DNA from: Betaproteobacteria bacterium
GTDB lineage: Bacteria; Pseudomonadota; Gammaproteobacteria; Burkholderiales; Usitatibacteraceae
Direction of reading: 5' to 3'
Length of the DNA stretch: 21,238 nucleotides
Assembly: GCA_003105245.1 (NCBI GenBank)
Contig: PQAI01000169.1
Coordinates: 1-21,238 of the forward strand
Shown: one piece after another, positions 1 to 17,631 of the stretch
Layout: each line of letters begins with the position of its first letter
How positions within the stretch are numbered: the first letter of the stretch is position 1
Translations under genes and position numbers: made by a program
Notes under the pieces: generated by a model
What the model saw: the letters and a program-made list of their open reading frames with translations, nothing else
Told to the model about the DNA's origin: nothing
Databases searched by the model: none

Positions 1-190
1 GCCATCGGAGTGGAAGAACCGCGAGGTCGCGAGGAAGAGCCTGGTGGCCGCGCGGGCCCTGAAGGCGGGCGAGCGTCTCGAGGTCGCGTGCAAGCGGCCC
101 GGGACGGGACTTTCGCCCTTCGAGTACTGGGCCGCGGGCGAACGGGTGGCCGGGCGCGACTACGGCCCCGACGAGGCGATCGATGGCTGA
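1..190 (+). CDS. neuB: NeuB-type nonulosonic acid synthase, C-terminal end (partial)
   Basis: Only the last 62 residues are in the window, read from base 2 to the TGA at 188-190. They match the C-terminal SAF (antifreeze-like) domain of sialic/legionaminic/pseudaminic acid synthases: the arginine-lysine-serine-leucine-valine-alanine start (RKSLVAARALKAGERL) and the KRPGTGLSPFEYW segment are typical. In this family the SAF domain of one subunit closes over the active site of its dimer partner, and the enzyme condenses PEP with a 6-carbon amino sugar to make a 9-carbon nonulosonic acid. The catalytic TIM barrel lies upstream of the window, so the substrate (ManNAc, 2,4-diacetamido-mannose or the altro sugar) cannot be read here. 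The gene overlaps the next one by 8 bases (ATGGCTGA). Unlike the second NeuB-like gene at 12719, this copy keeps the canonical SAF motifs, so it is probably the working synthase. Confidence 0.85.
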   Translation, partial: PSEWKNREVARKSLVAARALKAGERLEVACKRPGTGLSPFEYWAAGERVAGRDYGPDEAIDG

Positions 191-1885: not shown

Positions 1886-2588
1886 CTCGCAGCCCGTGCT
1901 CGCGGTGATCCCGGCGCGCGGGGGCTCCAAGGGGCTCCCGGGCAAGAACATCCGGCCCGCCGGCGGCAAGCCCCTCATCGCCTGGACGATCGAGGCCGCG
2001 CGCGGCGCGCGGCGCCTGGACCGCGTGATCCTGTCCTCCGACGACGAGGCCATCATCGCGGTGGCGCGCGAGTGGGGCTGCGAGGTCCCCTTCGTGCGCG
2101 AGGCCCGGCTGGCGGGCGACGAGACGCCCACCATCGACGTGGTGCTCGACGCGCTCTCGCGACTGCCGGGCTACCCGTGGGTCGTGCTGCTGCAGCCCAC
2201 CTCGCCCCTTCGCCTCGCCTCCGACATCGACGGCGCCATCGACCGCTGCGAGCGCAGCTCCGCGCCCTCGTGCGTGTCCGTGCGCGAGGCGCAGGAGAAC
2301 CCGCACTGGATGTACCGTCTCGGCGAGGGCGGGCGGCTCTCCCCGGTCATCGCCGGCGCGGTCCCGACCCGCCGGCAGGACCTGCCGCCGGTCTACGTGC
2401 CCAACGGGGCGGTCTACGTGGCGCGCGCCGACTGGCTCGCGCGCGAGAGGAAGTTCATCACGACGGACACGGTGGCGTACGAGATGCCGGCGCGGCGATC
2501 GCTGGACGTCGACACCGAGTCCGACCTATTCCAACTGCAGGCCATCCTGGGTGAAAAGAAAGATGTTCCGCTATCCCCGACGACGTGA
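1878..2588 (+). CDS. CMP-nonulosonic acid cytidylyltransferase (NeuA/LegF type)
   Basis: A 236-residue cytidylyltransferase that activates a nonulosonic acid with CTP to give the CMP-sugar donor and pyrophosphate. The N-terminus carries the CTP-binding signature IPARGGSKGLPGKN at 11-24; SSDDEAI, the QPTSPLR segment and the late DVDTESD stretch (metal and product binding) are all present. It starts at a GTG in the sequence GTGATTGA that also contains the previous gene's stop, an 8-base overlap. The length is normal for the single-domain NeuA/LegF/PseF family. It lies between the PtmE-like enzyme and the amidotransferase, consistent with legionaminic acid, though sequence reading alone does not separate Neu, Leg and Pse specificity. 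Confidence 0.87.
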   Translation: MIDSQPVLAVIPARGGSKGLPGKNIRPAGGKPLIAWTIEAARGARRLDRVILSSDDEAIIAVAREWGCEVPFVREARLAGDETPTIDVVLDALSRLPGYPWVVLLQPTSPLRLASDIDGAIDRCERSSAPSCVSVREAQENPHWMYRLGEGGRLSPVIAGAVPTRRQDLPPVYVPNGAVYVARADWLARERKFITTDTVAYEMPARRSLDVDTESDLFQLQAILGEKKDVPLSPTT

Positions 2589-3885
2589 ATTCGACATCGA
2601 GCCCTTCAAGCGCGAGGCCGGTCCGCACGCGACCCGCTACGGGCTGCCGCACGACGTGGCCTTCTGCCGCAAGTGCGTCATCTCCAACCAGCGCCCCAAT
2701 TCCGCCGTCGAGTACGGGCACACGGCCGAGAGCCGGAAGACCACGATCCACTTCGACGGCGAGGGCGTGTGCGACGCGTGCCGCATGGCCGAGCAGAAGC
2801 ACGGCACGATCGACTGGGCCGACCGCGAGCGCCAGCTGCGCGAGCTCTGCGACCGCCACCGCCGCCACGACGGCTCCTACGACTGCGTGGTGCCGGGCTC
2901 CGGCGGCAAGGACAGCTTCTACGCCGCGCACGTGCTCAAGTACAAGTACGGCATGCACCCGCTCACGGTGACCTGGGCGCCGCACGTCTACACCGACTGG
3001 GGATGGCGGAACCTGCAGGCCTGGATCCACGCCGGCTTCGACAACTTCCTGTGCACGCCCAACGGTCGCATCCACCGCCTCATCACGCGCCTGGCCGTGG
3101 AGAACCTCTTCCACCCCTTCCAGCCGTTCATGTTCGGGCAGAAGTCGCTCGCGCCCAAGATGGCGCTGCTGCACCGCATCCCGCTCGTCTTCTACGGCGA
3201 GAACGAGGCCGAGTACGGCAACCCCATCGCCGACACGCAGACGGCGAAGCGCGACTGGTCGTACTTCACCTCCTCGGACAAGTCGAGGATCTACCTCGGG
3301 GGCACCTCGCTTTCCGACCTCAAGGAGCACTTCGGGGTGGACGAGCACGAGCTGCAGCCGTACCTGCCGGCCGACCCGGCGCAGATCGAGGCGCAGAAGG
3401 TCGAGGTGCACTACCTGGGCTACTACCTCAAGTGGCACCCGCAGAGCTGCTACTACTACGCGGTGGAGAACGGCGGCTTCCAGGCCTCCCCGGAGCGCAC
3501 GCCGGGCACCTACAGCAAGTACAACAGCATCGACGACCGCATCGACGACTTCCACTACTACACGACCTACATCAAGTTCGGGATCGGGCGCGCCACCTAC
3601 GACGCCGCCCAGGAGATCCGCTCGCGCGACATCGACCGCGACGAGGGCGTCGCCCTCGTGCGCCGCTTCGACGGCGAGTTCCCCGAGCGCTTCGCCGACG
3701 AGATCTTCCGCTACCTCAGCATCCCCGGGAAGGAGTTCCCGCAGGCCTCGCGGATGTTCGAGCAGCCGGTCATGGACTACGAGTACTTCATGCACCTGGC
3801 CGACACCTTCCGCCCGCCGCACCTGTGGAAGTTCGAGAACGGCGAGTGGAGGCTGCGCCACCGGGTCTTCGACGCGGGGGCCTAG
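2563..3885 (+). CDS. N-acetyl sugar amidotransferase (PseA/WbpG/WbuX family)
   Basis: A 440-residue PP-loop ATPase-type amidotransferase that converts an N-acetyl group into an acetamidino group using ATP and ammonia. Two CxxC pairs (C35/C38 and C70/C73) form a likely zinc-binding knuckle, followed by the PP-loop SGGKDS at 113-118 in PGSGGKDSFY. Campylobacter PseA/PtmG and Pseudomonas WbpG are the relevant relatives; WbpG works with a dedicated HisH/HisF pair, and both partners follow here. About 34 residues precede the first CxxC, more than in short relatives. I chose ATG 2563; an in-frame GTG at 2551 would add four residues. Neither start has a strong ribosome site, and both overlap the end of the cytidylyltransferase gene. 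Confidence 0.87.
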   Translation: MFRYPRRREFDIEPFKREAGPHATRYGLPHDVAFCRKCVISNQRPNSAVEYGHTAESRKTTIHFDGEGVCDACRMAEQKHGTIDWADRERQLRELCDRHRRHDGSYDCVVPGSGGKDSFYAAHVLKYKYGMHPLTVTWAPHVYTDWGWRNLQAWIHAGFDNFLCTPNGRIHRLITRLAVENLFHPFQPFMFGQKSLAPKMALLHRIPLVFYGENEAEYGNPIADTQTAKRDWSYFTSSDKSRIYLGGTSLSDLKEHFGVDEHELQPYLPADPAQIEAQKVEVHYLGYYLKWHPQSCYYYAVENGGFQASPERTPGTYSKYNSIDDRIDDFHYYTTYIKFGIGRATYDAAQEIRSRDIDRDEGVALVRRFDGEFPERFADEIFRYLSIPGKEFPQASRMFEQPVMDYEYFMHLADTFRPPHLWKFENGEWRLRHRVFDAGA

Positions 3886-3891
3886 CGGCCG

Positions 3892-4671
3892 ATGGCCAAC
3901 GTCCGCCTCATCGCGCGCCTCGACATCAAGGGGCCCAACCTCATCAAGGGCATCCACCTGGAGGGGCTGCGCGTCATCGGCGACCCGCAGGAGCACGCGC
4001 GCCGCTACTACGAGCAGGGCGCCGACGAGCTCCTCTACATCGACATCGTGGCGAGCCTCTACGGGCGCAACAGCCTGCGCGACATCGTGAGCCGGGCGGC
4101 GCGCGACATCTTCATCCCGCTCACCGTGGGCGGGGGCGTGCGCTCCGTGGACGACGTGAGGGACCTGCTGCGCGCCGGGGCCGACAAGGTGGCGATCAAC
4201 ACGGCGGCCGTCAACCGCCCGGAGCTCGTCACCGAGGTCTCGCGCGCCTTCGGCTCGCAGTGCATGGTGCTGTCGATCGAGGCCAAGAAGATCGGCGAGG
4301 GCCGCTGGGAGGTGTTCACCGACAACGGCCGCGAGCGCACCGGCAAGGACGTGGTGGAGTGGGCGCGGCGAGGCTGGGAGCTGGGGGCGGGCGAGATCCT
4401 GCTCACCTCGGTCGACCGCGAGGGCACGCGCAAGGGCTTCGACGTGGAGCTCGTGGAGGCGGTGACGCGCGCCTGCGCCATCCCCGTGATCGCGAGCGGC
4501 GGCATGGGCACGCTCGAGCACGTGGAGGAGGTGTGCAAGCGCGGCCGGGCCGACGCCGTGGCCATCGCCGACGCGCTGCACTACAAGCGCATGGACATCC
4601 CGCAGGTCCGCGAGGGCATGCGCTCCCGCGGCATCGCCGTGCGCCGGCTCGAGGGGAGGCCCGCGCCATGA
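3892..4671 (+). CDS. AglZ/HisF2-family acetamidino modification protein (WbuZ-like)
   Basis: A 259-residue (beta-alpha)8 barrel of the HisF family. It resembles the HisF2/WbuZ branch, which supplies ammonia for sugar amidation rather than making histidine: the opening RLIARLDIKGPNLIKG and the ASLYGRNSL segment are typical of that branch, and it is flanked by the amidotransferase and a HisH partner. The first acid of the cyclase site (D11 in RLDIKG) is present. The second, D130 in true HisF, is glutamate here (SIEAKK, residues 129-133). The phosphate loops TVGGGV and SVDREGTRKGF are retained. It probably acts as the barrel through which ammonia from HisH reaches the amidotransferase. Its 3' end overlaps hisH by four bases (ATGA). 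Confidence 0.87.
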   Translation: MANVRLIARLDIKGPNLIKGIHLEGLRVIGDPQEHARRYYEQGADELLYIDIVASLYGRNSLRDIVSRAARDIFIPLTVGGGVRSVDDVRDLLRAGADKVAINTAAVNRPELVTEVSRAFGSQCMVLSIEAKKIGEGRWEVFTDNGRERTGKDVVEWARRGWELGAGEILLTSVDREGTRKGFDVELVEAVTRACAIPVIASGGMGTLEHVEEVCKRGRADAVAIADALHYKRMDIPQVREGMRSRGIAVRRLEGRPAP

Positions 4672-5312
4672 CCGCCGCGGTCACCGTCATCGACTACGGC
4701 ATCGGCAACATCTTCAGCGTCACCCGCGCCCTGGAGCATTGCGGCGCGACGGTGCTCCTGTCGGGCAGGCCCGAGGACATCCTGGCCGCGCCCCGCCTCG
4801 TGCTCCCCGGCGTGGGCGCCTTCGCCAACGGCATGGAGGGGCTGCGCAGCCGGGGGCTCGTCGAGCCCATCCGCCGCTACGCCGCGAGCGGCCGGCCGCT
4901 CCTGGGGATCTGCCTCGGCATGCAGATGCTCTTCGCCCGCAGCCTCGAGTTCGGCGACCACGAGGGCCTCGCGCTCATTCCCGGCATCATCGCGCCCATC
5001 GTCGCGAAGGCGCCGGACGGCGCCGCCCTCAAGGTGCCGCACATCGGCTGGACGCCGCTCGAGCGCCCGCCGGGATGCGCGACCTGGGACGCGACGCTCC
5101 TCGCCGGCGTGCGCGAGGGCGAGAACTGCTATTTCGTGCACTCGTTCACCGCCGTGCCCGAGCGCGAGTCCTCGCGCCTGGCGGACGCCTGCTACGGCGA
5201 CTGCCGCATCTCGGCCGCGGTGCGCGAGGGCAATGTCTGGGGCTGCCAGTTCCACCCCGAGAAGAGCGGGGAGACGGGGCTCAGGATGGTCGCCAACTTC
5301 GTGAGGATGTGA
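4668..5312 (+). CDS. HisH-type glutamine amidotransferase subunit (HisH2)
   Basis: A 214-residue class I glutaminase. The catalytic triad is complete: nucleophile C82 in GICLGMQ, and H196 and E198 in QFHPEKSG. The N-terminal DYGIGN and PGVGAF motifs are those of HisH. It hydrolyses glutamine and passes ammonia to its HisF partner. The setting (amidotransferase-HisF2-HisH2, no other histidine genes) indicates that it feeds acetamidino-group formation, as shown for the Pseudomonas WbpG/HisH/HisF set, not imidazole glycerol phosphate synthesis. The start ATG overlaps the stop of the HisF2 gene, and the next gene begins one base after its stop, so all are probably co-transcribed. Confidence 0.87.
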   Translation: MTAAVTVIDYGIGNIFSVTRALEHCGATVLLSGRPEDILAAPRLVLPGVGAFANGMEGLRSRGLVEPIRRYAASGRPLLGICLGMQMLFARSLEFGDHEGLALIPGIIAPIVAKAPDGAALKVPHIGWTPLERPPGCATWDATLLAGVREGENCYFVHSFTAVPERESSRLADACYGDCRISAAVREGNVWGCQFHPEKSGETGLRMVANFVRM

Positions 5313-6306: not shown

Positions 6307-7266
6307 ATGACAGACAACCAAGTCCTGCTGGTCGGCGCGGGCCCCATGGCGGTGGCCTACGCGAAGGTGCTCCAGGCGCACGGGATCGCCCCGGTGACCG
6401 TGGGGCGCGGCGCGAAATCGGCGGCCGCCTTCCGGGCCGAAACGGGGCTGGAGGCCTCGCAGGGCGGGCTGGAGGCGTGGCTCGCGGCCGGCCGCCCCGT
6501 GCCCGGGCGCGCCATCGTCGCGGTGGGCGAGAAGTGGATCGGGAAGGCGACCCGCAGCCTCATCGACGCGGGCGTGGGCTCGATCCTCGTCGAGAAGCCC
6601 GGCGGCCTCGACCCGGCCGACATCCGCGCGGTGGCCGCGCGCGCGGCAGAGCGCCGCGCCGAGGTCTTCGTGGGCTACAACCGGCGCTTCTACGCCTCGG
6701 TCGACGCGGCGAGGCGGCTGATCGCGGAGGACGGCGGCGCGACCTCCTTCAACTTCGAGTTCACCGAGTGGGGACACGTCATCGCCCCGCTCGAGAAGGA
6801 GGAGGGCGTGAAGGCGCAGTGGTTCCTCGCCAATTCCACGCACGTGATCGACCTCGCCTTCCACCTGGGCGGCGCCCCGGCCGAGATCGCCTGCTTCACC
6901 GCGGGCGGCGTCGACTGGCACCCCTCGGCCACCGTCTTCGCCGGCGCGGGAAGGACGGCGGCGGGAGCGCTCTTCTCCTACCAGGCCAACTGGCAGGCGC
7001 CCGGGCGCTGGGGCGCGGAGATCCTCACGCGCAAGCGCCGCTTCATCTTCCGGCCGCTGGAGAAGCTGCAGGTGCAGAACCTGGGCAGCGTAGCCATCGA
7101 GCCGGTGGCGATCGACGACGCGCTCGACCAGCAGTTCAAGCCCGGGCTGCACCGCCAGGTGGGCGCCTTCCTCGCGCGCGACGCGGCCGTGCTGCCGACC
7201 ATCGCCGGGCAGGTGGCCATGCTCGCGTGGTACGAGAAGATCCGCGACGGCGGGAAGGCCGCGTGA
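6307..7266 (+). CDS. Gfo/Idh/MocA family oxidoreductase, second copy
   Basis: A 319-residue protein with an N-terminal Rossmann motif (LLVGAGPMAVAYAK, about 7-20), the family's EKPGG catalytic motif (E96-K97-P98) and YNRRFY (124-129), which follows in many sugar dehydrogenases of this family. It is only distantly similar to the preceding oxidoreductase and has the complete EKP motif that the first lacks, so the two probably act on different substrates or steps. A 27-base gap separates them, the longest in this part of the operon. The stop overlaps the GTG start of the ABC permease. The role is inferred as sugar modification for the exported glycan; the substrate is unknown. Confidence 0.78.
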   Translation: MTDNQVLLVGAGPMAVAYAKVLQAHGIAPVTVGRGAKSAAAFRAETGLEASQGGLEAWLAAGRPVPGRAIVAVGEKWIGKATRSLIDAGVGSILVEKPGGLDPADIRAVAARAAERRAEVFVGYNRRFYASVDAARRLIAEDGGATSFNFEFTEWGHVIAPLEKEEGVKAQWFLANSTHVIDLAFHLGGAPAEIACFTAGGVDWHPSATVFAGAGRTAAGALFSYQANWQAPGRWGAEILTRKRRFIFRPLEKLQVQNLGSVAIEPVAIDDALDQQFKPGLHRQVGAFLARDAAVLPTIAGQVAMLAWYEKIRDGGKAA

Positions 7267-8087
7267 GCACGCGCATCACCACGGTCTCGGCCTCGGCCGG
7301 GCCCTCGGTCCGCAGCCTCCTGGCCGAGCTCTGGGCCTATCGCGGCCTGGTGTGGGCGTTCTCCGCGCGCGACCTCAAGGTCAAGTACTTCCAGACGATC
7401 TTCGGCCCCCTGTGGGTGGTCCTCACGCCGCTCATCACCGTGGGCGTGATGACGTTCGTCTTCGGCCTGATGATCAAGGTGCCCTCCGACGACCTGCCCT
7501 ACCTGGTCTTCTACCTCGTGGCGATCGTGCCCTGGCTCGCCTTCATCGCGGTGTTCAGCCAGACGATGACCTCGCTCGAGGCGCACGGATCGCTGCTCAG
7601 CAAGATCTACTTCCCGCGGCTGGTGATCGGCGCCTCCTACGCGGTGAACGGCACGATCGACTTCCTCGTGGGCTTCGCCGCCGCGGTGGCGGCGGCGGCG
7701 GCGTACGGGATCCTCACCGTGCAGTTCGTGCTCGCCATGCCGGTGCTGCTCGCCATCCAGATGGCGTGGGCGCTGGGCCTGGGGTTCCTGCTCGCCCCCT
7801 GGAACGCGCAGTACCGCGACGTGAAGCACGTCATCCCGCTCGTGATCCAGCTCTACTACTTCGCGAGCCCGATCCTCTACTCGGTGTCGGTGGCGCCGTC
7901 GTGGATGAAGTGGATGTACGCCGTGAACCCGCTCGCGGTCGTGGTGACCGCCTACCGCTCGCTGCTCAACGGCCACCCGCTCGACTGGCCGGCCCTCGCC
8001 TGGGCGCTCGTCGCCTCCTTCGCCGTCCTGGCGTGGGGCGCGGTGGCCTTCATGCGCCGGGAGCAGGAAATGGTGGACGTGCTGTGA
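7263..8087 (+). CDS. wzm: ABC-2 type polysaccharide exporter permease (Wzm-like)
   Basis: A 274-residue integral inner-membrane protein with about six hydrophobic segments (roughly residues 49-71, 78-99, 118-150, 154-179, 187-208 and 244-263). Family features include an amphipathic N-terminal region with RDLKVKYFQT before the first membrane segment, the cytoplasmic NAQYRDVKHVIP loop (181-192) and the late NPL...AYR element (222-232). It is the membrane half of a Wzm/Wzt exporter, which moves undecaprenyl-linked polysaccharide (O-antigen or capsule-like) to the periplasm. It starts at a GTG overlapping the previous stop (GTGA), and its own stop overlaps the GTG of the ATPase gene, the tight arrangement expected of a subunit pair. 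Confidence 0.92.
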   Translation: MSTRITTVSASAGPSVRSLLAELWAYRGLVWAFSARDLKVKYFQTIFGPLWVVLTPLITVGVMTFVFGLMIKVPSDDLPYLVFYLVAIVPWLAFIAVFSQTMTSLEAHGSLLSKIYFPRLVIGASYAVNGTIDFLVGFAAAVAAAAAYGILTVQFVLAMPVLLAIQMAWALGLGFLLAPWNAQYRDVKHVIPLVIQLYYFASPILYSVSVAPSWMKWMYAVNPLAVVVTAYRSLLNGHPLDWPALAWALVASFAVLAWGAVAFMRREQEMVDVL

Positions 8088-10888
8088 CCTGGTCGATCCA
8101 GGTCGAAGGGCTCTCGAAGCTCTACCGCGTGGGGCGCGGGCACGCGCGCAGGTTCGACAGCTTCTACGAGGTGGTCGCCGACAAGGGGCTCGCCCTCGCC
8201 GAGCGGCTCACCGGCGGACGCTCGAGCCGCATCCTGCCCGTGCGCGCCGCGGCGAGGCCCCCCGAGATCCAGAGCGAGCACCTGGTGCTCTCCGCCGGGC
8301 AGTTCGACGGCGCCCCCGAGGGCCACTTCTGGGCGCTGAAGGACATCTCGCTCGAGATCGCGGAGGGGCAGCGCGTCGGCATCATCGGCCGCAACGGCTC
8401 GGGCAAGAGCACGCTGCTCAAGATCCTGTCGCGGATCACGCGCCCGAGCGAGGGCCTGTTCCGCTTCCGCGGGCGCCTCATCAGCCTGCTGGAGGTCGGC
8501 ACCGGCTTCCACCCGGACCTCACGGGCCGCGAGAACATCTTCATCAACGCCAAGATCAACGGCATGTCCGACGCCGAGATCCGCCGCAAGTTCGACGAGA
8601 TCGTCGACTTCTCCGAGCTGGGCGTGCAGATCGACACGCCCATCAAGCGCTACTCCTCGGGGATGTACATGCGGCTCGCCTTCTCCGTGGCCGCGCACCT
8701 GGAGAGCGAGATCCTCATCGTGGACGAGGTGCTCGCGGTCGGCGACGCGGGCTTCCAGAGGAAGTGCCTCGACAAGATGCTCGAGATCGGCAACTCCGGG
8801 CGCACGCTCCTCTTCGTGAGCCACGACATGGACGCGGTGAGGAAGCTGTGCGACTCGGCCGTGGAGATCTCGCACGGCCGCCTGGTCGCCCAGACCCGCA
8901 TCGGCGCCGGGGCCGGCGGTCCGCAGGCCCAGGGGGCGGGGCAGCAGTCCGTGGCCGCGGCCATCGCCGACTACTCGCTCGACCGCAAGATGAGGAGCGA
9001 GCGCGCCTGGAGCGAGGAGGAGGCGCCGCGCACGCCCTCCGGCGGCCTGGCGGTGCTGCGCGCGTGGCTCGAGGACGCGAAGGGCGAGGTCCGCGGCAGC
9101 TTCGTCCCCGGCGAGGAGATCGGCGTGCGCGTGGAGCTCGGCGTCGCCTCGGCCACGAGCGGCTGTACGCTGAGGCTGGAAGCGGCCACGGTTACCGGCC
9201 GGGCGCTCCTCGCCGCCACGGCCCGCGTGGGACTGGAGGAGGTCGCGGCCGGCGGCGCCCGCGTGGTCGGCTGCCGCATCCCCGCGCCCTTCTTCAACCC
9301 CGGCGTGTTCCGCCTGGGGCTGGCGCTCGCCGACGAGGCCGACCCGGGGCGCGAATGCGCGCTGCGCGAGGCGCTCGACCTCGTCGTGCTGCCCGGCGCG
9401 GAGCCGGTCCCCGCGGCCGCCCGCGAGGCGCCGCTCGCCCCCGCCTTCGACTGGTCGTCCTCGGCCTCGGGAGCCGCCGTCGCGCCGCGCGTGCGCCGCG
9501 CCGCGCACACGCTCGTGGCGGTGTACTCGCCTTCGCAATGGGCCTACCTGCGGCGCGTGGCTTCGCGCCTGCGTGATCGCGGCGAAAGCGTGGGCGCGGT
9601 CTACTTCGGCCCCGCCGGGCCGGGCGGGGACTCGATCCGGGAATCGGCCGCCCGCGAGGGTTTCGCCTTCTTCGACCACGAGGCGATGGCCGCGGCGCTC
9701 CCGCCGCCCCCGGCGGAAGGCGTGGCGATTCCCGCGGCGCTCGAGGGCGGCCGCCCGCCGCTCGCCGACGACCATCCCTATCGCGTGCTGGTTCGCCGCC
9801 AGGTCGAGGCCGCGCGCCGCGTCTTCGACGAGAGCGGCGCGCGCCTGCTCCTCGTCGGCGAGGACGGGATCGGCGGCGACGCCGCCCTCATCTCGATCGC
9901 GCGCCGGCGCGCCATTCCCGTGGTGGTGACGCCCTACGGCATCGGCGAGAGCCGCGACTACGACGTCTTCCTCGACGACAAGCATCGCGCGGGCGCGCTC
10001 AACGTGGTTCCCGACGACGCCCTCGGCGGCTTCGTCCGCCGGCACGCCGCGAAGTGGATCCGCCGGCGGCCCTACGGCGAGGCCCTCGTCTTCCCGGCCG
10101 AGTTCCTCGTCGCGCGCCTGCTCGAGGGCCTGGACCAGCCGCTGCCGTGGGCCGTGCAGGGCGGAAACGCGAACGCGATCGCGGTGGAGTCGCCCGCGAT
10201 GCGCCGCCACTACCTGCGCGAGGGCATCGCCGAGGCGAAGCTCGCCGACGCCGGCTCCGTCTTCTGCGACGCCCTCCTCGAGGCGATGCGCGAGGACCCC
10301 GCGTTCGTCACCGCCTTCGAGACCCAGCGCAAGGCGCGGGCGGGCGCCACCTCGATCCTGGTGTCGCTGCCGCCCAGCTACCACGACGGCCGTGCGCCGG
10401 GCGGCGGGCCTGCCTCCTACTCCGATTTCTGCCGCGAGTTGCTCGGCTACTGCGCGAGCCTGCCCGGCGCGCAGCTCACCGTCTCCATCCATCCCAACAC
10501 CCGTCCCGAGGACGCGGAGGCGATCCGCGCCACGGGCGCGCGCGTGTCGGATCGCTGGGTCGTGGAGCTCATCGCCCAGCACGACGTCTTCCTCACCGTG
10601 TACTCGAGCACCATCCGCTGGGCCATCGCGGCGCGCAAGCCGGTGGTGAACCTGGACCTCTACGGCTTCCGGCTCCCCACCTACGACGGCGTGCCGGGCG
10701 TGCTCGCCGCGGGCACGATGGACGAGGCCAGGCGGATCGTGGCGGGCCTCGTGGGCGACGACGGGGAGTACCACCGCGCGGCGCTTGCCCAGGCCGGCGC
10801 GAGCGCGGACTGGGGAGCCCTCGACGGCGGCAACCTCGCGCGCCTGCTGGATCTCGCGGCGGGGCTGCGCGCGGGAGCGCGCGCATGA
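8084..10888 (+). CDS. wzt: Wzt-type exporter ATPase fused to a glycosyltransferase-like domain
   Basis: A 934-residue protein in one uninterrupted frame. Residues about 1-260 are an ABC ATPase: Walker A GRNGSGKST at 102-110, signature YSSGMYMRLA from 190, Walker B ILIVDE from 210, and SHD for the H-loop. Residues about 290-440 fit the Wzt C-terminal beta-sandwich that recognises the glycan in several O-antigen systems. A proline/alanine-rich linker follows. Residues about 475-934 form a GT-B-like domain with EDG at 593-595, HP at 803-804 and SST at 841-843, collinear with the protein at 15994-17631. Usual Wzt proteins are roughly 250-470 residues and end after the sandwich. The fusion suggests that a sugar transfer step is tethered to export. 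The GTG start overlaps the permease stop. Confidence 0.85.
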   Translation: MTWSIQVEGLSKLYRVGRGHARRFDSFYEVVADKGLALAERLTGGRSSRILPVRAAARPPEIQSEHLVLSAGQFDGAPEGHFWALKDISLEIAEGQRVGIIGRNGSGKSTLLKILSRITRPSEGLFRFRGRLISLLEVGTGFHPDLTGRENIFINAKINGMSDAEIRRKFDEIVDFSELGVQIDTPIKRYSSGMYMRLAFSVAAHLESEILIVDEVLAVGDAGFQRKCLDKMLEIGNSGRTLLFVSHDMDAVRKLCDSAVEISHGRLVAQTRIGAGAGGPQAQGAGQQSVAAAIADYSLDRKMRSERAWSEEEAPRTPSGGLAVLRAWLEDAKGEVRGSFVPGEEIGVRVELGVASATSGCTLRLEAATVTGRALLAATARVGLEEVAAGGARVVGCRIPAPFFNPGVFRLGLALADEADPGRECALREALDLVVLPGAEPVPAAAREAPLAPAFDWSSSASGAAVAPRVRRAAHTLVAVYSPSQWAYLRRVASRLRDRGESVGAVYFGPAGPGGDSIRESAAREGFAFFDHEAMAAALPPPPAEGVAIPAALEGGRPPLADDHPYRVLVRRQVEAARRVFDESGARLLLVGEDGIGGDAALISIARRRAIPVVVTPYGIGESRDYDVFLDDKHRAGALNVVPDDALGGFVRRHAAKWIRRRPYGEALVFPAEFLVARLLEGLDQPLPWAVQGGNANAIAVESPAMRRHYLREGIAEAKLADAGSVFCDALLEAMREDPAFVTAFETQRKARAGATSILVSLPPSYHDGRAPGGGPASYSDFCRELLGYCASLPGAQLTVSIHPNTRPEDAEAIRATGARVSDRWVVELIAQHDVFLTVYSSTIRWAIAARKPVVNLDLYGFRLPTYDGVPGVLAAGTMDEARRIVAGLVGDDGEYHRAALAQAGASADWGALDGGNLARLLDLAAGLRAGARA

Positions 10889-11610
10889 CGGGCGCGCGCG
10901 GGGCCTACAGCCGCACCGGCGTCTACCTCGAGGGCGGAGCGGACGGCCCGAAGCACATGTTCGTGCGCATCGGCGACCTCGTCGCGCGCCGAGCCGACGC
11001 GGCAGCGGGCTTCGACCTGCTCGACGTGGGCGCCGCCGCCGGGGCCTTCGCCGCCTACGCGCTGTCGCGCTTCCCCGCGGCCCGCGTGACCGGGCTCGAG
11101 CACGATCCCGCGCTGGTGGCCGCGGCGCGCGCCGCGTGCCCCGCCGCCACCTTCCTCGAGGGCGACGCCAACCGCATGGCGGGGCTCGCCGATTCGGCCT
11201 TCGACGTGGTGACCATGACCGGCACGCACTCGATCTTCGACGACTTCCGGCCCTCGTTCTCGGAGTGCCTGCGGGTGGCGCGCGAGGGCGCCACGGTGAT
11301 CGTCACCGGGATCTTCAACCCCTGGCCCGTCGACGCGCAGATCCACTGGCGCTACGGCGCGCGCTTCGAGGCCGACTGGCACCCCGGGTACAACCTCTTC
11401 TCCCACCTCTCCGTGGCGACCTTCCTCGAGGCCCACCCGCGCGTGCGCGGCCACGAGTTCGTGCCCTTCGCGCTGCCCTTCGACCTCGCGCCGAGGGAGG
11501 ACCCGATCCGCTCCTGGACCGAGGCCGGCGCCGCGGGCGAGCGCATCCTGCGCAATGGCATCATGCCGCTGCCCTTCGCGAGCCTCGTCGTCGCCGTCGG
11601 GAACCGATGA
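10885..11610 (+). CDS. Class I SAM-dependent methyltransferase
   Basis: A 241-residue Rossmann methyltransferase. Motif I is LLDVGAAAGAF (45-55), followed by an acidic residue at the end of strand 2 (GLEHDP, 70-75), GDANRM (93-98), and the FDVVTMTGTHSIFDDF segment corresponding to motif IV. It would use S-adenosylmethionine to methylate a sugar, phosphate or other acceptor. It lies between the exporter ATPase fusion and a glycosyltransferase-like gene and overlaps the ATPase stop by ATGA, so it most likely modifies the exported glycan. Methylation of the chain end, as by WbdD in some ABC-exported O-antigens, is one possibility; internal sugar methylation is another. Confidence 0.78.
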   Translation: MTGARGAYSRTGVYLEGGADGPKHMFVRIGDLVARRADAAAGFDLLDVGAAAGAFAAYALSRFPAARVTGLEHDPALVAAARAACPAATFLEGDANRMAGLADSAFDVVTMTGTHSIFDDFRPSFSECLRVAREGATVIVTGIFNPWPVDAQIHWRYGARFEADWHPGYNLFSHLSVATFLEAHPRVRGHEFVPFALPFDLAPREDPIRSWTEAGAAGERILRNGIMPLPFASLVVAVGNR

Positions 11611-12722
11611 GGCTCATCGCCGCCGCCGGCGACCGGGACGGGTGGCAGCACCTGGAGGCGGTGGCCCGCGCGCTGCCGGACGGTGGCCGCGAATCCCTCG
11701 CGCTCTGCCGCGCGGGTCTCGGGCCGATCGACGGGATTCCCACGCGCGTGCTCGTGGACGACGCGGCCGCGCAGGAGGAAGTCGACCGCGCCATGGGCGG
11801 GAACGACGTCGACGCGGTCCTCCTCGTCACCAGCCGCACGGGCCCCGATCCGCTCACGCGCGCCGCGGCGAGGGGTTGCGCCGGTCTGCCCGTGTTCGCG
11901 ATCCAGGAGTACTGGGGCGACCCGCTGGGCGTGGAGCCCGTCGACGGCGGCGCGCTCCGCTACCTCGTGCGCGACGAACTCGCCGCGAAGCTCACCGCGG
12001 CCCGGCAGCCGCTCGCCGACGTTTGCGCGACCGGCAGCCCCAAGTACGCGGCTTACGAGCGCCGCGACATCGAGGCGGCGCGCCGCGCCCGGCGCGCGGA
12101 GCTGGGCGCGGGCGAGGGCGATCGCCTCGCGGGATGGTTCGGCCAGGCCCCGCTCGCGGAGGAGAGCTACCGGCGCACGCTCGAAGCCTTCGCCCGGGCC
12201 GTCGCCGCGCGCCGCGGCACGAAGCTCCTCTACCGGCCGCACCCGCGCGAGTCGCCCGAGCAGGCGGCGCGGTCCCTGCGCACGTTCCGGGAAGCCGGGG
12301 TGGAGGCGCGTCTCGCGACGTCGGGCGAGACCTGGCAGTGGATCGCGGCCGTGGACGCGGTCTTCGCCTGCTTCTCCAATTGCTGCGCCGACGCGGCCCA
12401 CCTCAACCGGGCCTCGCCGCGCCCGCTCAACGCCCCGGCCTTCATGCTGTTCGACGAGGAGCTGCGCGCCTACCACGAGCGCGCCACCGCCATGTCACAG
12501 CCGCCGCTCGCCACGCTCGGCCTCGCGCTGCTGGCCGCGCAGGCCGCGCGGGTCGGCGAGGTCGTCGAGGAGGCGCTCGATCCGGCCACCGCCGGGCGCC
12601 ACTGGGACGCGGCGCGGCGTATGCTGCCCCTCGGGTCGGCCGCCGCGGCAGCGGTGGCGGGAGAGCTCGCGCAGGCAGGCCCTGCGCCGCGGGATGCGAG
12701 GGCAAGGAGGGAGCGCAAGTGA
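11607..12722 (+). CDS. GT-B-like surface polysaccharide biosynthesis protein (HP motif)
   Basis: A 371-residue protein that I do not recognise by name. It is clearly paralogous to the minus-strand gene at 14746-15891: both share an aromatic QEYWGD or QDFWGE element (100-105 here), TGSPKYAAY (142-150), a WFGQ/LFGQ strand (177-180), YRPHPRE (209-215) and FSNC (256-259). The histidine of HP (H212) and the serine of FSN (S257) are 45 residues apart in both. This C-terminal pattern recalls GT-B enzymes of the CDP-glycerol glycerophosphotransferase and bacterial sialyl/polysialyltransferase groups, so a transferase role in glycan assembly is likely, but donor and acceptor are unknown. The alanine-rich, charged C-terminal tail contains the ribosome site of the next gene. 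Confidence 0.6.
   Translation: MRLIAAAGDRDGWQHLEAVARALPDGGRESLALCRAGLGPIDGIPTRVLVDDAAAQEEVDRAMGGNDVDAVLLVTSRTGPDPLTRAAARGCAGLPVFAIQEYWGDPLGVEPVDGGALRYLVRDELAAKLTAARQPLADVCATGSPKYAAYERRDIEAARRARRAELGAGEGDRLAGWFGQAPLAEESYRRTLEAFARAVAARRGTKLLYRPHPRESPEQAARSLRTFREAGVEARLATSGETWQWIAAVDAVFACFSNCCADAAHLNRASPRPLNAPAFMLFDEELRAYHERATAMSQPPLATLGLALLAAQAARVGEVVEEALDPATAGRHWDAARRMLPLGSAAAAAVAGELAQAGPAPRDARARRERK
12704..12710 (+). promoter_or_regulatory. Strong Shine-Dalgarno site for the NeuB-like gene
   Basis: The sequence AAGGAGG lies eight bases before the GTG at 12719, inside the end of the preceding coding region. It is the best ribosome-binding site I noticed in the operon and fixes the GTG as the start of the divergent NeuB paralog. 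Confidence 0.75.
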
Positions 12723-13774
12723 ACCGGTTCTTCATCGGCCGCACCGAGGTGGGAGGCGGCGGGCCGCCGGCCCTGTGGCCCGACATCGACGTGTACTTCA
12801 AGCGCGACGCCGCGCTCGCCCTTCGCCTCGTGGACGCCATCCGGGAGGCGGGCATCGCGACGGTGAAGACGGCCGCGCTCCACGACCCCGGGCTCGCCGT
12901 GGACGGCGGGGCGCCGGCCCAGTACTTCGTGCAGGGGCGGGGCGTGGTCTCCGAGTCCTACCGCGAGGTCGTCGAGCGCCACGCCGTTCCCCTGGCGGAC
13001 CTTCGCCGCATCTTCGCCCGCGTGCGCGAGCGCGGGCTCGACCTCGTGGTGAGCGTCTACGACGAGGAGGGCATCGCGCTCGCGGTCGAGATGGATGCCG
13101 CCGCGCTCAAGATCCCCAGCAGCAACATCGTGCACGCGCCGCTCATCCGCGCCGCGGCCTCGGCGGGCCGGCCCCTGGTGATCGACACCGGGCGCTCGAC
13201 GATGGCCGAGATCGGGCGCGCGGTGGCCTGGGCGCGCAGGGCCGGCGCCGAGCGCCTGCTCGTCCAGCACAGCCCGCCCGGCCCGCCCGCCCCGGCCGCC
13301 GATTTCCACCTGCGGATGATGGCGGAGCTCGGCCGGCGCTTCGACGCGCCCTGCGGGCTGTCGGACCACTTCCCGGGAACCGAGATGCTGCTCCTCGCGG
13401 TGGCCCTGGGCGCGAGCGTTCTCGAAAAGGGCGTGTGCGCCGACGGCACCGCGCCCGACATCGACATCGCGCACGCGCTTCCCGCCTCGCAGCTCGCGCG
13501 CACGCGCGAGTTGCTCGAGCTCGCGCACGCCGCGCTCGGGCGCACGGAGCGCGTGCTTCCCCTCGACAGGCCGCGCCCGCCCGACCGGATGGGCCTCGTG
13601 GCCGCGCGCGAGCTCGCCGCCGGCGAGCGCGTGACGCGCGAGAGCGTGCGCTTCGCCTTCCCCACGCGGGGCATCCCCGTCGAGGAGTGGGACGAGGTCG
13701 AGGGCCGCAGCCTCGCGCGCGGCCTTCGCCCGGGAGAGCCCCTGTCCCGAGAGCACCTGGCTCCCCGTGATTGA
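12719..13774 (+). CDS. Divergent NeuB-family (nonulosonic acid synthase-like) protein
   Basis: A 351-residue protein with the NeuB layout: a TIM-barrel domain (about 1-275) and a C-terminal SAF domain (about 290-351). Barrel landmarks are recognisable: VKTAAL at 49-54 (usually VKFQ), LKIPSS at 130-135 (usually KIASGE), LSDH at 214-217, and ALGASVLEKG at 229-238. Several positions that are nearly fixed in the family differ. The AEIGxNHxG motif near the N-terminus is missing, the glutamate after KIASG is asparagine, the CVSNYP strand reads VQHSPPG, and EKH is EKG, removing one of the two metal-binding histidines. The SAF opening reads RMGLVAAREL instead of R(R/K)SLVA. It may use a different substrate or have lost PEP condensation. 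The start is the GTG behind a strong ribosome site. Confidence 0.75.
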   Translation: MNRFFIGRTEVGGGGPPALWPDIDVYFKRDAALALRLVDAIREAGIATVKTAALHDPGLAVDGGAPAQYFVQGRGVVSESYREVVERHAVPLADLRRIFARVRERGLDLVVSVYDEEGIALAVEMDAAALKIPSSNIVHAPLIRAAASAGRPLVIDTGRSTMAEIGRAVAWARRAGAERLLVQHSPPGPPAPAADFHLRMMAELGRRFDAPCGLSDHFPGTEMLLLAVALGASVLEKGVCADGTAPDIDIAHALPASQLARTRELLELAHAALGRTERVLPLDRPRPPDRMGLVAARELAAGERVTRESVRFAFPTRGIPVEEWDEVEGRSLARGLRPGEPLSREHLAPRD

Positions 13775-14756
13775 CGCGCCGGCGCACGAAGGGCTGGTGC
13801 CCGCACCGCTCGCCTGGCAGGAAGCCGGCGGCGAATGGGCCGGGCGGATCGCGGCGGCCGCGGACGCCTCGCGCGTGGAGCTCGCCACGCGCCCCCGGCC
13901 GCAGCCGCGCGGCTACTACCGCATCACCGCGAAGGCCACGGGCGCCAGGCGCTTCGGCAAGGTCGTGGCGGCCGCCGAGCTGCAGAGGCAATGGGCGGCG
14001 CAGCAGCTCTCCGACCGTGCGGCGGCAGCGGGCGTGCCCGCGCAGCGCTCGGTCGGGCAGCCGCTTGCGATCGGCGACGGCTATGCGCTCCTGATGTGCG
14101 AGTGGATCGACGGCCGTTTCGCCACGCCGTCGCGAGCCGAGCTCGCGCAACTGGGCGGCGTGGTGGCCGCGCTTCACGGCTTCCTGCGCGGCGAGCCGGC
14201 CGCGGGACGGGCACCCGACCCCTGGAACCCGCTCGAGGCGCTCGCGTCCTCCGGGCGCATCCCGGCGCCGGTCGCGGCCGCGGCGGCCGACCTGCTGCGG
14301 CGGCGCGGCGAGGTCGAGGAGCAGCTCGCGACGGCCCTGCAGCCCCTCCACAACGACCTGCACGCCGGGAACCTGTTCTTCCACGGCGACGGCCGCGTGG
14401 CCGCCGTCCTCGACTGGGAGGAGGCGCTGCACTCGGCCGGCTGCCCGCTCGTCGACCTGGGCTGGGTGGTGGAGCGCCTGTGCTTCGCGCGCCTCGGCGC
14501 GGCCGAGGCCGAGCGGCTCGCGGACGCCTTCCTGCGGGCCTACGCGGCCGCCGCGCCGCGCTTCCCCGTGCGACCCGGCGCGCTCCTCGACGCGATCCGC
14601 TTCCGCGGCCTGTACGCGCTGGGGCTGATCGACCGCGACGAGTCCGCGGACTCGCCCGCGATGCACCGCGAGCGCGCGAAGTTCGAGTCCCTCGTCGTGG
14701 CCTCGGAGGACTGGCGCCCCGCCCTCGGGCGCCTGGAGGCAATCGTCAGGGGTTGA
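13767..14756 (+). CDS. APH/choline kinase-fold phosphotransferase
   Basis: A 329-residue kinase-like protein. The C-lobe carries the Brenner-type catalytic loop LHNDLHAGN (H195, D197, N202) and the metal-binding aspartate in VLDWEEA (D216). In the N-lobe, RRFGKVV supplies a plausible ATP-binding lysine with a following glutamate in AAELQRQW. The family phosphorylates small molecules, lipids or sugars. Nothing suggests antibiotic resistance here: it overlaps the NeuB-like gene by eight bases (GTGATTGA) and ends the glycan operon. A sugar or chain-end kinase role is inferred from context only. Its 3' end overlaps the convergent gene by 11 bases. Confidence 0.75.
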   Translation: MIDAPAHEGLVPAPLAWQEAGGEWAGRIAAAADASRVELATRPRPQPRGYYRITAKATGARRFGKVVAAAELQRQWAAQQLSDRAAAAGVPAQRSVGQPLAIGDGYALLMCEWIDGRFATPSRAELAQLGGVVAALHGFLRGEPAAGRAPDPWNPLEALASSGRIPAPVAAAAADLLRRRGEVEEQLATALQPLHNDLHAGNLFFHGDGRVAAVLDWEEALHSAGCPLVDLGWVVERLCFARLGAAEAERLADAFLRAYAAAAPRFPVRPGALLDAIRFRGLYALGLIDRDESADSPAMHRERAKFESLVVASEDWRPALGRLEAIVRG

Positions 14757-15891
14757 GCGCGGGCCCGCGGCCCGCGGCCGCCTCCAGCAGGGCGTCGGCC
14801 ATGCGGCTCGCGGCGAGCGAGGGATCGGGGAGCGAGCGCCTCGCCGCGCGCCAGGTCCCGGCCCGCCCCGCCTCGCCGATCGCCTCGCCGAGGGCCGCCG
14901 GGAGCGCCGCGGGATCGCGCACCGCGATCGCCAGCCCCTGCGAGAAGTAGGGCAGATCCTCGAAGCGCGCGATGGCCGAGTAGAAGGCGGCCATCTCCGG
15001 GTCGAAGAGCAGCATCATGGGCGACACCAGCGGCGAGGCGCTGAAGTAGTTGAGGTACGCGGCGTCGTAGGCGCAGTTCGAGAACACGGTGCAGGCCGCG
15101 TCGCATGCGACGAGGGCTTCCTCGGTGCTCTCGGCCTCGAGGCTCGCCACCGCCACGCCGGCCTCCTCCAGCAGCGAGCGGGTGCGCGCGCGCTCCTCCG
15201 GCAGCTCGCGCGGGTGGGGGCGGTAGACGAAGCGCGTCCCCGGCGCGAGCGCGAGGCACGCCTGCGCCCACGCGTCGAGCGTGCGGCGGTAGCCGGGCCG
15301 GTCGTGCAGGTGCTGCCCGAACAGGCCCACGACCGCCGCGTCCGGCGCGATGCCGAAGCGATCGCGGATGCGCGAGCGCGTCGCCGCGAGGTCGATGTGC
15401 CGGTATTCGCCGTGCCGCGGCGAGCCGCTCACGACGGCGGGCGTGCCGTGGCGCGCGAGGCTCAGCCTGGCGGCCGCCTCGTCGAGGGCGAACACCGCGT
15501 CCGGGCCGCGGCCGAAGAAGTCGTTCTGCTCGCCCCAGAAGTCCTGCATGACGAACGCGGGCACCCGGCGGCGCGCGAGGAGCGCCTCGTCGATGCCGCC
15601 CTCCCGCGGCGAGGAAAGGCCGCAGAGGACGACGTCGGGCCTCGCCTCGGCGAGGACCGCGTCGGCGAGCGAGAGCAGCGCGTGCGCCTCGGCGCCGTCG
15701 CGCTCGCGGGCGTACACGAAGGGCAGTGCCCGCGCCTCCACGCCGTGCTCCCGCAGGATGTCGAGCGCCGGCTGCTGGGCCGCGACGACCAGGCGCAGGC
15801 GGGCGTCGTCGCGCGCGTGCGCGCAGAAGGCGGAGAGCTGGAACGCCGCCGCGGGATCGCGCGCCGACACGAGAAGGGTCACCCGGCTCAT
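14746..15891 (-). CDS. GT-B-like surface polysaccharide biosynthesis protein, paralog
   Basis: A 381-residue protein on the opposite strand, paralogous to 11607-12722. Shared landmarks are QDFWGEQ (116-122), SGSPRHGEY (155-163), LFGQ (190-193), YRPHPRE (223-229) and FSNCAYDAAYLN (270-281); the HP-to-FSN spacing of 45 residues is identical. An acidic/glycine segment (PREGG, 95-99) lies where the related Wzt-fused domain has EDG. I infer a glycosyl- or glycerophosphate-type transferase for the same glycan; the donor is unknown. The start is the ATG at 15891-15889. Its promoter must lie in the 102-base spacer shared with the divergent gene at 15994, unless it is read from further away. The stop lies inside the end of the kinase gene. 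Confidence 0.62.
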   Translation of the reverse strand: MSRVTLLVSARDPAAAFQLSAFCAHARDDARLRLVVAAQQPALDILREHGVEARALPFVYARERDGAEAHALLSLADAVLAEARPDVVLCGLSSPREGGIDEALLARRRVPAFVMQDFWGEQNDFFGRGPDAVFALDEAAARLSLARHGTPAVVSGSPRHGEYRHIDLAATRSRIRDRFGIAPDAAVVGLFGQHLHDRPGYRRTLDAWAQACLALAPGTRFVYRPHPRELPEERARTRSLLEEAGVAVASLEAESTEEALVACDAACTVFSNCAYDAAYLNYFSASPLVSPMMLLFDPEMAAFYSAIARFEDLPYFSQGLAIAVRDPAALPAALGEAIGEAGRAGTWRAARRSLPDPSLAASRMADALLEAAAGRGPALNP

Positions 15892-15993: not shown

Positions 15994-17631
15994 ATGTCTG
16001 AAACGAACGTCCTCGTCTTCGTCCACATCCCGACGCACTTCGCGGAGATGCTGCGCGTGGCGCGGCTGCTGCAGGGCACGGCGCGCTACCGCCCCCTCGT
16101 CGTCTTCAACGCGATGTACGAGGGCGTGGACGGCGACGTGGAGGCCTGCCGCCGCCTGGGCATCGAGACCGTCACCGAGGACCGCTACTCGCGCTACCTG
16201 CCGCCCAAGCCGCCGCTCACCGGGATCGCCCGCTGGATCAACCGGCAGCTGCGCGGGGCGCGGGCCCGGTTCGTGCGCGGCACGCGGCACGGGCCCGTCT
16301 GGCAGCTTCGCCTGGCCTACCGGGCCACGCGCCGCGGGGCGTTCGCCCTGGTCCGCGCGGTCTTCCGGTTGAGCCGGAGCGACAACCCCGTCATCCGCGG
16401 CGTCCGCCTGGTCGTCTGGGCGCTGCTGGCGCCCTTCGTCTTCCTGCTGCGCTCGCCGCTGCGCCGCGCGCTGGTGGCGCTCTTCGGCTTCGTGTTCCGG
16501 CGCCTGCCTTTCCTGCTGCCGCCGGACATCGCGGCGCAGCGCTACTTCACGCGCATCCTCCCCGGGCTCCTCGAGCGCAACCGCGTGGGCGTCGTGGTGG
16601 TGCCGGAGGACAATTTCTTCTACTTCACCAACCTGCTCATCCGCGGCGTGCACGAACGCGGCGGCGTGGCCGTGGTCGTCCCGTTCACCATCGTCAACGT
16701 GCGCGAGTGGGCGGAGGCCTTCCATCGCGAGCCGGCCTGCGACGCGAGCATGCTCGTCAACCGCGTGATCGCCGAGCTCTTCCCGGCGTGGACCCACGAG
16801 TACCGGGGCCGGCGGATGGTGCTGCCCGCGCAGCAGGTGCTGGCCGCGCAGTACCACCGCGCCGCGCCGCCGGTGCCCTGGCTGATCAACAGCGGGCACG
16901 CGGACGCCATCGCCGCGGAGAGCCCCTTCATGGCGGACTACTACCGCCGCGCCGGCATCCCCGACCGCCAGGTGCGCCTCACGGGCGCCCTCTACGACGA
17001 CGTGCTGCATCGCGGGCTCGCGCGCGCGGCGCAGGACCGCGAGGATCTCTACCGCGAGGCGGGCCTGCCGCCCGGCCGGCCGATGCTCCTTTGCGCGATG
17101 CCCCCGAACCAGCTGCGCGGCTCGGGCCGGCCGCAGTGCGCCTTCCAGGACTACGGCCTGATCCTGGAGGCCTTCGCCGGGCCCCTGGAGGCGATCGCCG
17201 ACGAGTGGAACGTCGTCGTGAGCCTGCACCCGCGCATCACGGCCGAGGAGGCGGGCGCGCTCGCGGGCCGGCGGCTCTTCGTCTCGCGCCGCAACATCGC
17301 CGACCTCGTGCCGCTTTCGCGCATCTTCGTCGCCTCGAGCTCGGCCACCATCCGCCTCGCGGTGACCTGCGCGATCCCCGTCGTCAACTACGACGTCTAC
17401 GCCTACGACTACGACGACTACCGCGACGTGCCCGGCGTGGTCACGATGACGAGGCAGGAGGACTACGCGGCGTGGGTGGACGGGCTGGCGCGGCACCCCG
17501 AGACCTGGGAGAAGTCGCGCGCGGCCCTGGCGGAATTCGCGCGCGACCGGGCGGTGCTGGACGGCAGGGCCGGGGAGAGGCTCCTCGCCCTCCTCGACGC
17601 GCTCCTGGCCGCCCGCCCCGCGATTCAGTAG
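15994..17631 (+). CDS. Glycosyltransferase-like protein, free-standing paralog of the Wzt-fused domain
   Basis: A 545-residue protein whose second half is collinear with residues 475-934 of the Wzt fusion. Shared elements are a PEDN acidic motif (204-207; GEDG in the fusion), NSGHADAIAAESPFM (NGNANAIAVESPAM-like in the fusion), SLHPRITAEE with HP at 412-413, and SSSATIR at 448-454. The E-to-HP distance is 207 residues here and 210 in the fusion; HP-to-serine is 36 and 38. An acid motif, HP and an S/T pair together recall bacterial sialyl- and polysialyltransferases. Residues about 90-172 form a basic, hydrophobic region (two stretches near 138-152 and 159-175) that the fused paralog lacks and that may bind the membrane. 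The start is ATG 15994, without a clear ribosome site. Confidence 0.65.
   Translation: MSETNVLVFVHIPTHFAEMLRVARLLQGTARYRPLVVFNAMYEGVDGDVEACRRLGIETVTEDRYSRYLPPKPPLTGIARWINRQLRGARARFVRGTRHGPVWQLRLAYRATRRGAFALVRAVFRLSRSDNPVIRGVRLVVWALLAPFVFLLRSPLRRALVALFGFVFRRLPFLLPPDIAAQRYFTRILPGLLERNRVGVVVVPEDNFFYFTNLLIRGVHERGGVAVVVPFTIVNVREWAEAFHREPACDASMLVNRVIAELFPAWTHEYRGRRMVLPAQQVLAAQYHRAAPPVPWLINSGHADAIAAESPFMADYYRRAGIPDRQVRLTGALYDDVLHRGLARAAQDREDLYREAGLPPGRPMLLCAMPPNQLRGSGRPQCAFQDYGLILEAFAGPLEAIADEWNVVVSLHPRITAEEAGALAGRRLFVSRRNIADLVPLSRIFVASSSATIRLAVTCAIPVVNYDVYAYDYDDYRDVPGVVTMTRQEDYAAWVDGLARHPETWEKSRAALAEFARDRAVLDGRAGERLLALLDALLAARPAIQ

Follow-up and report, generated by a model that had tools for sequence, protein, structure and literature searches.

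In the characterised capped glycan export systems considered here, the enzyme that terminates the chain is separate from Wzt, the ATPase of the ATP-binding cassette (ABC) exporter. The terminator modifies the chain end with a methyl group, a (methyl)phosphate or a sugar, for example the ulosonic acid Kdo, and the C-terminal sandwich of Wzt admits the chain only afterwards (PMC9445017, PMC11231755; these papers, like all others cited here, are drawn on through excerpts of their text). Another described system close to the present one is that of Legionella pneumophila serogroup 1, whose O-chain is a legionaminic acid homopolymer exported by Wzm-Wzt. Its locus holds wzt and wzm (open reading frames (ORFs) 4 and 5), ORF 6, ORF 7, the methyltransferase gene ORF 8 and the NeuB-type ORF 9, in an orientation that varies among strains (PMC3766260), and ORF 8 is reported to N-methylate legionaminic acid on its acetimidoyl group (PMC3766260, PMC13306086). 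Here we describe a wzt gene that continues in frame into a glycosyltransferase (GT) domain of predicted GT-B fold. It lies on contig PQAI01000169.1 of a bacterium of the Usitatibacteraceae (assembly GCA_003105245.1); the whole stretch analysed, 21,238 nucleotides, is called the window below. As in Aquifex aeolicus WzmWzt and E. coli O9a Wzt, an ATPase is followed by a sandwich with an end strand and Wzm is encoded directly upstream; unlike in those proteins, a predicted GT-B enzyme of 460 residues trails the end strand.

The ORF at 8084-10888 is a genuine, conserved in-frame gene fusion. It translates without internal stop into 934 residues. It overlaps both neighbours by 4 bases, GTGA with the upstream wzm and ATGA with the downstream methyltransferase gene, so it is part of a tight operon, and the G+C content at third codon positions is 0.87-1.00 over the whole gene, the fusion junction included. 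A search with residues 460-934 returned six proteins, four with the layout ABC, sandwich and GT, and two in which the GT is joined to a methyltransferase. Three of the four, compared as predicted protein sequences, show 85% (P0003), 80% (P0004) and 62% (P0005) overall identity to the window protein. The fourth, P0002, is 99% identical; because it is listed without a source and may be the window's own cluster, it was excluded from the independent count. P0003, P0004 and P0005 all read through the junction, including the region from about 9380 to 9510 in which the initial annotation had placed a possible missed stop or frameshift. Its claims of an open frame, of normal overlaps with the neighbouring genes and of a gene that is not an assembly error are therefore borne out, and the other proteins of the same architecture that it called for exist.

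The position of the junction can be read from an unfused relative in the same genus (genome G004, locus L046). There, Wzt stops right after ...PLAPVFDWSS, so the fusion junction corresponds to the natural end of Wzt. From the acetyltransferase gene through the first oxidoreductase gene, identity to the window is 94-99%; it is 84% for wzm and 77% for wzt over residues 1-461. The second oxidoreductase and the exporter are 77-84% identical between the two genomes. Past wzt, G004 continues on the opposite strand with two genes that differ from the window's, and then comes a relative (66%) of the window gene g17. The pattern looks as if exporter and transferase genes had been exchanged as a cassette within the genus. 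The initial annotation had also described a Pro/Ala-rich linker. Such a stretch is present, at residues 441-452 and with low confidence in the model, but it precedes the last sandwich strand, and the true linker past that strand is short, about residues 463-474. A separate GT could conceivably be made from an internal start codon, since in-frame GTG codons occur at 9491, 9515 and 9521, among others; however, no ribosome-binding-like sequence was seen by eye ahead of the internal GTGs, and no methionine near the junction is conserved in P0003-P0005.

The first half of the protein is a complete Wzt, as had been proposed. Its ATPase carries the motifs GRNGSGKST, YSSGM, ILIVDE and SHD, which we take to be the Walker A, signature, Walker B and H-loop motifs respectively. 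Pfam ABC_tran matched residues 85-216 (E 1.5e-18), the domain matched PDB entries 6amx (6.6e-59) and 8dku (2.7e-58), and it is closest to Wzt. The adjoining gene encodes a Wzm permease (ABC2_membrane). For the sandwich, the Wzt_C match at residues 318-421 is weak and under the cut-off (E 0.04, 14.3 of 30.4 bits), and a single-sequence PDB search with this part gave nothing significant (best E 0.78). Strands are nevertheless predicted at 306-435, with one more at 456-462, as in a jelly-roll sandwich with an end strand. The conserved end strand PAFDWSS aligns with the P-x-x-x-W terminus of unfused Wzts. The N-terminal half was realigned separately for this comparison; in alignment A4, 13 unfused Wzt rows are empty at the columns of residues 302-464 and were possibly misplaced elsewhere. 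Full-length A. aeolicus Wzt (7k2t) was structurally aligned over residues 4-448, and 7k2t, 8dku, 8dne and 8dl0 all aligned over about this range, with a root-mean-square deviation of 13-14.5 Å across the two domains. The full-length model had a predicted template modelling score of 0.57, and its sandwich part rests on 4 aligned rows.

The C-terminal domain (residues 475-934) was modelled as a GT-B fold, with two Rossmann-like halves in GT-B topology (predicted local distance difference test 89.8). The initial annotation had called this region GT-B-like and had made its reading depend on the predicted fold; structure prediction with fold comparison gave a glycosyltransferase fold. No Pfam family matched this half of the protein, and querying the PDB with a profile of the GT alignment gave nothing significant (best E 0.36). 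The nearest folds were UDP-GlcNAc 2-epimerases (top), MurG and other enzymes of nucleoside diphosphate (NDP) sugars. These top matches raised the possibility of a NeuC-type UDP-GlcNAc 2-epimerase, an identity that was rejected as the main reading, as the fused domain has no Epimerase_2 match. It is also weakened by the genome's one Epimerase_2 (NeuC-type) match found, which sits elsewhere, on contig C65; when the domain was compared with the C65 protein by profile, the probability was 22% (E 9e-4, 77 columns), which fits a distant shared fold. Near-invariant positions were seen among 21 aligned sequences of the family: [DE]-[DE]-G in 19, H-P in 21, S841 in 21 and the second serine in 19. The S841-S842-T843 group presumably has a role in phosphate binding. 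D/E-D/E-G and HP are motifs of the bacterial sialyltransferases GT38, GT52 and GT80, and both are important for catalysis or for binding of CMP-Neu5Ac, the cytidine monophosphate (CMP)-activated donor (PMC2169525). The fused domain resembles these enzymes in both motifs and in a predicted GT-B fold, the type of fold solved for PmST1 (GT80). The domain probably works like a CMP-nonulosonate transferase, a reading that its gene neighbourhood supports.

To place the domain among its relatives, it was searched alone, which returned 16 proteins. Ten of them (P0009-P0018) are free-standing GTs of 460-475 residues with 44-50% identity; the others are P0008, P0019-P0021 (more distant or shorter) and the two methyltransferase fusions, P0006 and P0007. 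In these natural fusions the GT domain comes first, and the methyltransferase half resembles the next gene of the window, with 51% identity (partial) in P0006 and the value given in Table 1 for P0007. A tree built from 21 GT sequences groups the Wzt-fused GTs with P0008 in a single clade (support 100/99) and sets the methyltransferase fusions apart (100/100), so that each type seems to go back to its own fusion event. P0008, 473 residues on a contig of 1588 bases, could represent either a truncated fusion or one that split later, and it was left out of the fused count. Of the 28 family genomes sampled, 1 contains the GT domain, the host genome itself; of 369 class genomes, with no more than 4 candidates scored in each, 3 do (the same genome, one match of 35% and one weak match, E 2.2e-9). 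In the search that gave the Wzt of G004, 8 candidates were scored per genome, and the matches listed were nearly all ABC ATPases.

A search of a contig collection gave 18 matching loci, 8 nearest to the fused GT domain and 10 nearest to g17; the flanks covered reached at most 10 kb, and less where a contig ended. Among the 8, NeuB was present at 6 and a NeuA-type gene at 6, one or the other at 7; a methyltransferase was present at 4 and an amidotransferase at 5. Legionella norrlandica (L028, 10001-12506) carries a pair of neighbouring genes related to the GT domain (35% and 31%), with g15, kinase-like, NeuB, methyltransferase, NeuA and amidotransferase genes close by. The fused domain is a member of a rare family that is usually free-standing near nonulosonic-acid genes.

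Other transferases have also been joined to Wzt. Among long Wzt-like proteins (120 listed of 1393 matches, lengths 514 to about 1634), Pfam labels of glycosyltransferase type occurred in 7, of methyltransferase in 2, of sulfotransferase in 3 and of pyruvyltransferase in 1. Ten of the 120 were scanned for domains, nine picked for an extra domain label and one, P0022, from the large group labelled as ATPase only. A transferase was C-terminal to the ATPase in seven: Capsule_synth in P0031, GT2 in P0053 and P0085, GT4 in P0060, a methyltransferase in P0054 and P0108, and a pyruvyltransferase in P0135. In P0058 the transferase was N-terminal, and for P0104 the Glyco_transf_4 label was not matched by a domain in the scan at E 1e-5. 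P0022 has two ABC domains, and about two dozen listed proteins of 780-825 residues with ATPase labels only may be of the same kind. Fusions of Wzt with transferases therefore recur, but the domains are unrelated to that of the window, which belongs to a different family. It looks as if enzyme-on-exporter fusions arose several times. The initial annotation knew of no characterised Wzt with such a partner. This holds for the open-licence PMC literature on Wzt with fused or terminating enzymes, in which no published Wzt-GT fusion was recognised; as to novelty in public sequences, it has to be qualified by the fusions just described.

The remaining genes of the window are listed in Table 1. Only NeuD, WbuX and HisH pass the NCBIfam cut-offs, and the matches to NeuA/PseF, NeuB and HisF fall below them. 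The layout of the CBS and nucleotidyltransferase gene we take to be PtmE-like. Counterparts of the second NeuB-type gene neighbour the free-standing GT in other genomes. The two putative glycosyltransferases g12 and g15 are paralogs (37% over 275 columns), neither with a Pfam match above cut-off. Contig C65 ends in 799 bases that match the first 799 of the window at 97.6%, so that C65 is probably directly upstream; the mismatches are probably strain variants in this metagenome-assembled genome (MAG). Besides the Epimerase_2 match, C65 carries another NeuB. From these gene assignments, the operon is predicted to make an acetamidino-substituted nonulosonic acid by established pathways.

Table 1. 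Features of the window, with the fusion gene and its parts; positions are those of the whole stretch.
Feature	Position	Strand	Basis
NeuD-type acetyltransferase	183..830	+	TIGR03570 over cut-off
CBS + nucleotidyltransferase	827..1885	+	domain matches
CMP-nonulosonate synthetase type (NeuA/PseF-like)	1878..2588	+	CTP_transf_3; PseF 147.3 bits, cut-off 205.7 not reached
N-acetyl sugar amidotransferase (WbuX family; acetamidino group)	2551..3885	+	398.5 bits, cut-off 203.2
HisF-like	3892..4671	+	HisF 290.4, WbuZ 290.0 bits, both slightly under cut-offs
HisH-like	4668..5312	+	over cut-off
wzm, membrane partner of the exporter	7263..8087	+	ABC2_membrane, E 2.6e-14
Wzt-GT fusion gene, 934 residues	8084..10888	+	GTG start, TGA stop
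ABC ATPase (nucleotide-binding) domain, residues 1-273	8084..8902	+	Pfam, PDB matches, structural alignment
Wzt C-terminal beta-sandwich (carbohydrate-binding type), residues about 302-462	8987..9469	+	weak Pfam, strands, alignments
Linker (fusion junction), residues 463-474	9470..9505	+	unfused same-genus Wzt stop, strand prediction, end-strand alignment
GT-B domain, residues 475-934, predicted CMP-nonulosonate transferase	9506..10885	+	structure model, homologues, motifs
D/E-D/E-G motif, E593-D594-G595	9860..9868	+	alignment; motif meaning PMC2169525
HP motif, H803-P804	10490..10495	+	alignment; PMC2169525
S841-S842-T843, ahead of a helix in the C-terminal Rossmann half	10604..10612	+	model, alignment
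S-adenosylmethionine (SAM) methyltransferase	10885..11610	+	57% over 233 columns to methyltransferase half of P0007
g12, putative glycosyltransferase of another family, g15 paralog	11607..12722	+	no Pfam match
Second, divergent NeuB-type synthase with SAF domain	12719..13774	+	Pfam; under NCBIfam equivalog cut-offs
APH-type kinase-like protein, same module	13767..14756	+	Pfam, neighbourhoods elsewhere
g15, putative glycosyltransferase	14746..15891	-	weak Glyphos_transf, E 0.21; near module in other genomes
g17, free-standing distant paralog of the fused GT	15994..17631	+	28% over 261 columns, E 2e-20

Some further observations concern the genes at the distal end. Relatives of g15 lie near nonulosonate genes in other genomes. 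Loci L030-L040 hold relatives of g17, and several of these have NeuA, NeuB or amidotransferase genes close by. At one of these loci (L033, 5516-11041, a Bacteroidetes MAG) the g17 relative is about 3 kb from a Wzt-type ATPase (64%) and a Wzm-type permease (29%), and NeuB- and NeuD-type genes lie further along. The g17 family is a candidate for a broad family of nonulosonate transferases. A right-handed beta-helix protein (NosD-like) is encoded at 17625-18542 on the opposite strand, at the end of the glycan cluster.

The order Wzm, Wzt-GT, methyltransferase, g12 and NeuB resembles ORF 4-9 of L. pneumophila serogroup 1 as described in the excerpts of PMC3766260. Both combine Wzm-Wzt export with an acetamidino nonulosonate, a predicted one in the present case, and both have a methyltransferase gene and a second NeuB-type gene near by; in L. 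pneumophila, in contrast, wzt is an ORF of its own.

Taken together, we prefer, at about even confidence, a reading of this real fusion in which the transferase uses the CMP-activated acetamidino nonulosonate made by the same operon, and the product is a late or terminal residue read by the adjacent sandwich; the initial annotation had likewise suggested a terminal or late sugar addition coupled to export. The analysis shows directly that the fusion exists and is conserved, and it gives the predicted folds, the motifs and the genes around it. That the domain is active, which donor and acceptor it uses and through which linkage, where in the chain its residue sits, and that its action is coupled to export are inferred. 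In the most plausible mechanism, two transferases per Wzm2-Wzt2 exporter would stand at the cytoplasmic face beside the sandwich and would take CMP-activated acetamidino nonulosonic acid of the legionaminic or pseudaminic type as donor. Each would add a late or terminal nonulosonate to the lipid-linked chain; the sandwich would then recognise the nonulosonate-bearing end, and ATP-driven export would begin, so that the end is written and read in one place. With a nonulosonate transferase and the sandwich in one polypeptide, it is simplest to suppose that the residue recognised by the sandwich is the one added by the enzyme. By analogy, the enzyme would act as do WbdD, which adds methyl or phospho-methyl groups, and ORF7, the Kdo transferase of K. 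pneumoniae O4, whose Kdo is an ulosonic acid as is the predicted donor here; WbdD and ORF7 are separate from Wzt, whereas the predicted enzyme is on Wzt itself. A Kdo-transferring chain terminator is also found in K. pneumoniae O12. More tentatively, the protein may be a self-licensing exporter, an ATPase with both the writer and the reader of a cap, in which termination and export would be one event and of which the other Wzt-transferase fusions would be parallel inventions.

Several results weigh against the preferred reading. First, the two motifs are 209 residues apart in the window protein and 202-209 in the 21 sequences, whereas residue numbers put them about 125 apart in the enzyme of N. 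meningitidis and 170 apart in PmST1 (PMC2169525), although this spacing differs among the sialyltransferase families (PMC2169525). Secondly, none of the 16 family members had a sialyltransferase Pfam match at E up to 1, and none of the 50 fold matches listed was a sialyltransferase, although a listing of that length excludes nothing. Thirdly, B. subtilis SpsB carries both motifs and yet is dispensable for legionaminic acid transfer (PMC7439481). In view of the spacing, the Pfam result and SpsB, the domain is likened to the sialyltransferases and not assigned to GT38, GT52 or GT80. Fourthly, one of the 8 closest loci, L029, has neither NeuB nor NeuA in its flanks, and no clear Wzt or Wzm was found in the flanks of any of the 8, where ABC matches (25% identity) occurred at L026 and L027 only. 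The family thus seems untied to Wzt export before the fusion; it seems to belong to nonulosonate assembly generally and to have been recruited to Wzt in the lineage of the window. Finally, the host genome is a fragmented MAG with strain variation.

A possible alternative, to which we give about one chance in four, is that the fused GT adds nonulosonate within the repeat itself, or within an adaptor or side branch, and does not add the cap; its tether to Wzt would then serve to link elongation to export. The data are nearly as compatible with this as with placement of a cap: the legionaminic acid homopolymer of L. pneumophila serogroup 1 is exported by Wzm-Wzt (PMC3766260), and g12, g15 or g17 could serve as terminators instead. 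On the other hand, Wzt keeps its full sandwich and end strand, which in known systems reads a capped end (PMC9445017). Unlikely, though still to be taken seriously, is a GT-B transferase for a donor linked to UDP, GDP or CDP (uridine, guanosine or cytidine diphosphate), fused for coupling, with the nonulosonate genes serving other transferases. It would account for the lack of a sialyltransferase profile match and for nearest folds among UDP-GlcNAc 2-epimerases, MurG and NDP-sugar enzymes, and Epimerase_2 is weakly matched by 3 of the 16 relatives (best E 1.2e-4), but it leaves unexplained the near-invariant E-D-G and H-P and the repeated linkage to NeuB and NeuA. It seems improbable that the fusion is a neutral product of the operon, two independent enzymes in one polypeptide with no functional coupling. 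Tightly overlapping genes, a Wzt sandwich that is able to act in trans (PMC9445017) and GT relatives that are free-standing elsewhere would all permit it; the layout, however, is kept in one clade across sequences of 62-85% identity, and in other proteins Wzt has acquired transferase domains of unrelated families. An assembly artefact or missed stop, which strain variants in the MAG (97.6% identity in the contig overlap) and the stop at the junction of the unfused same-genus gene might suggest, is hardly credible, as the frame is open, third-position G+C is unbroken and the same junction occurs in P0003, P0004 and P0005 from other sources.

An ATPase, a chain-end reader and a probable chain-end writer in one polypeptide would allow the hand-over from synthesis to export to be studied within one complex. 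In addition, the fused domain brings into view a candidate nonulosonate transferase family; as of 2020, according to the excerpt of PMC7439481, no bacterial enzyme had been reported to transfer legionaminic acid to cell surfaces. That unrelated transferases have been fused to other Wzts suggests that such coupling is useful, and, if the coupling is real, chain synthesis and export would be physically linked.

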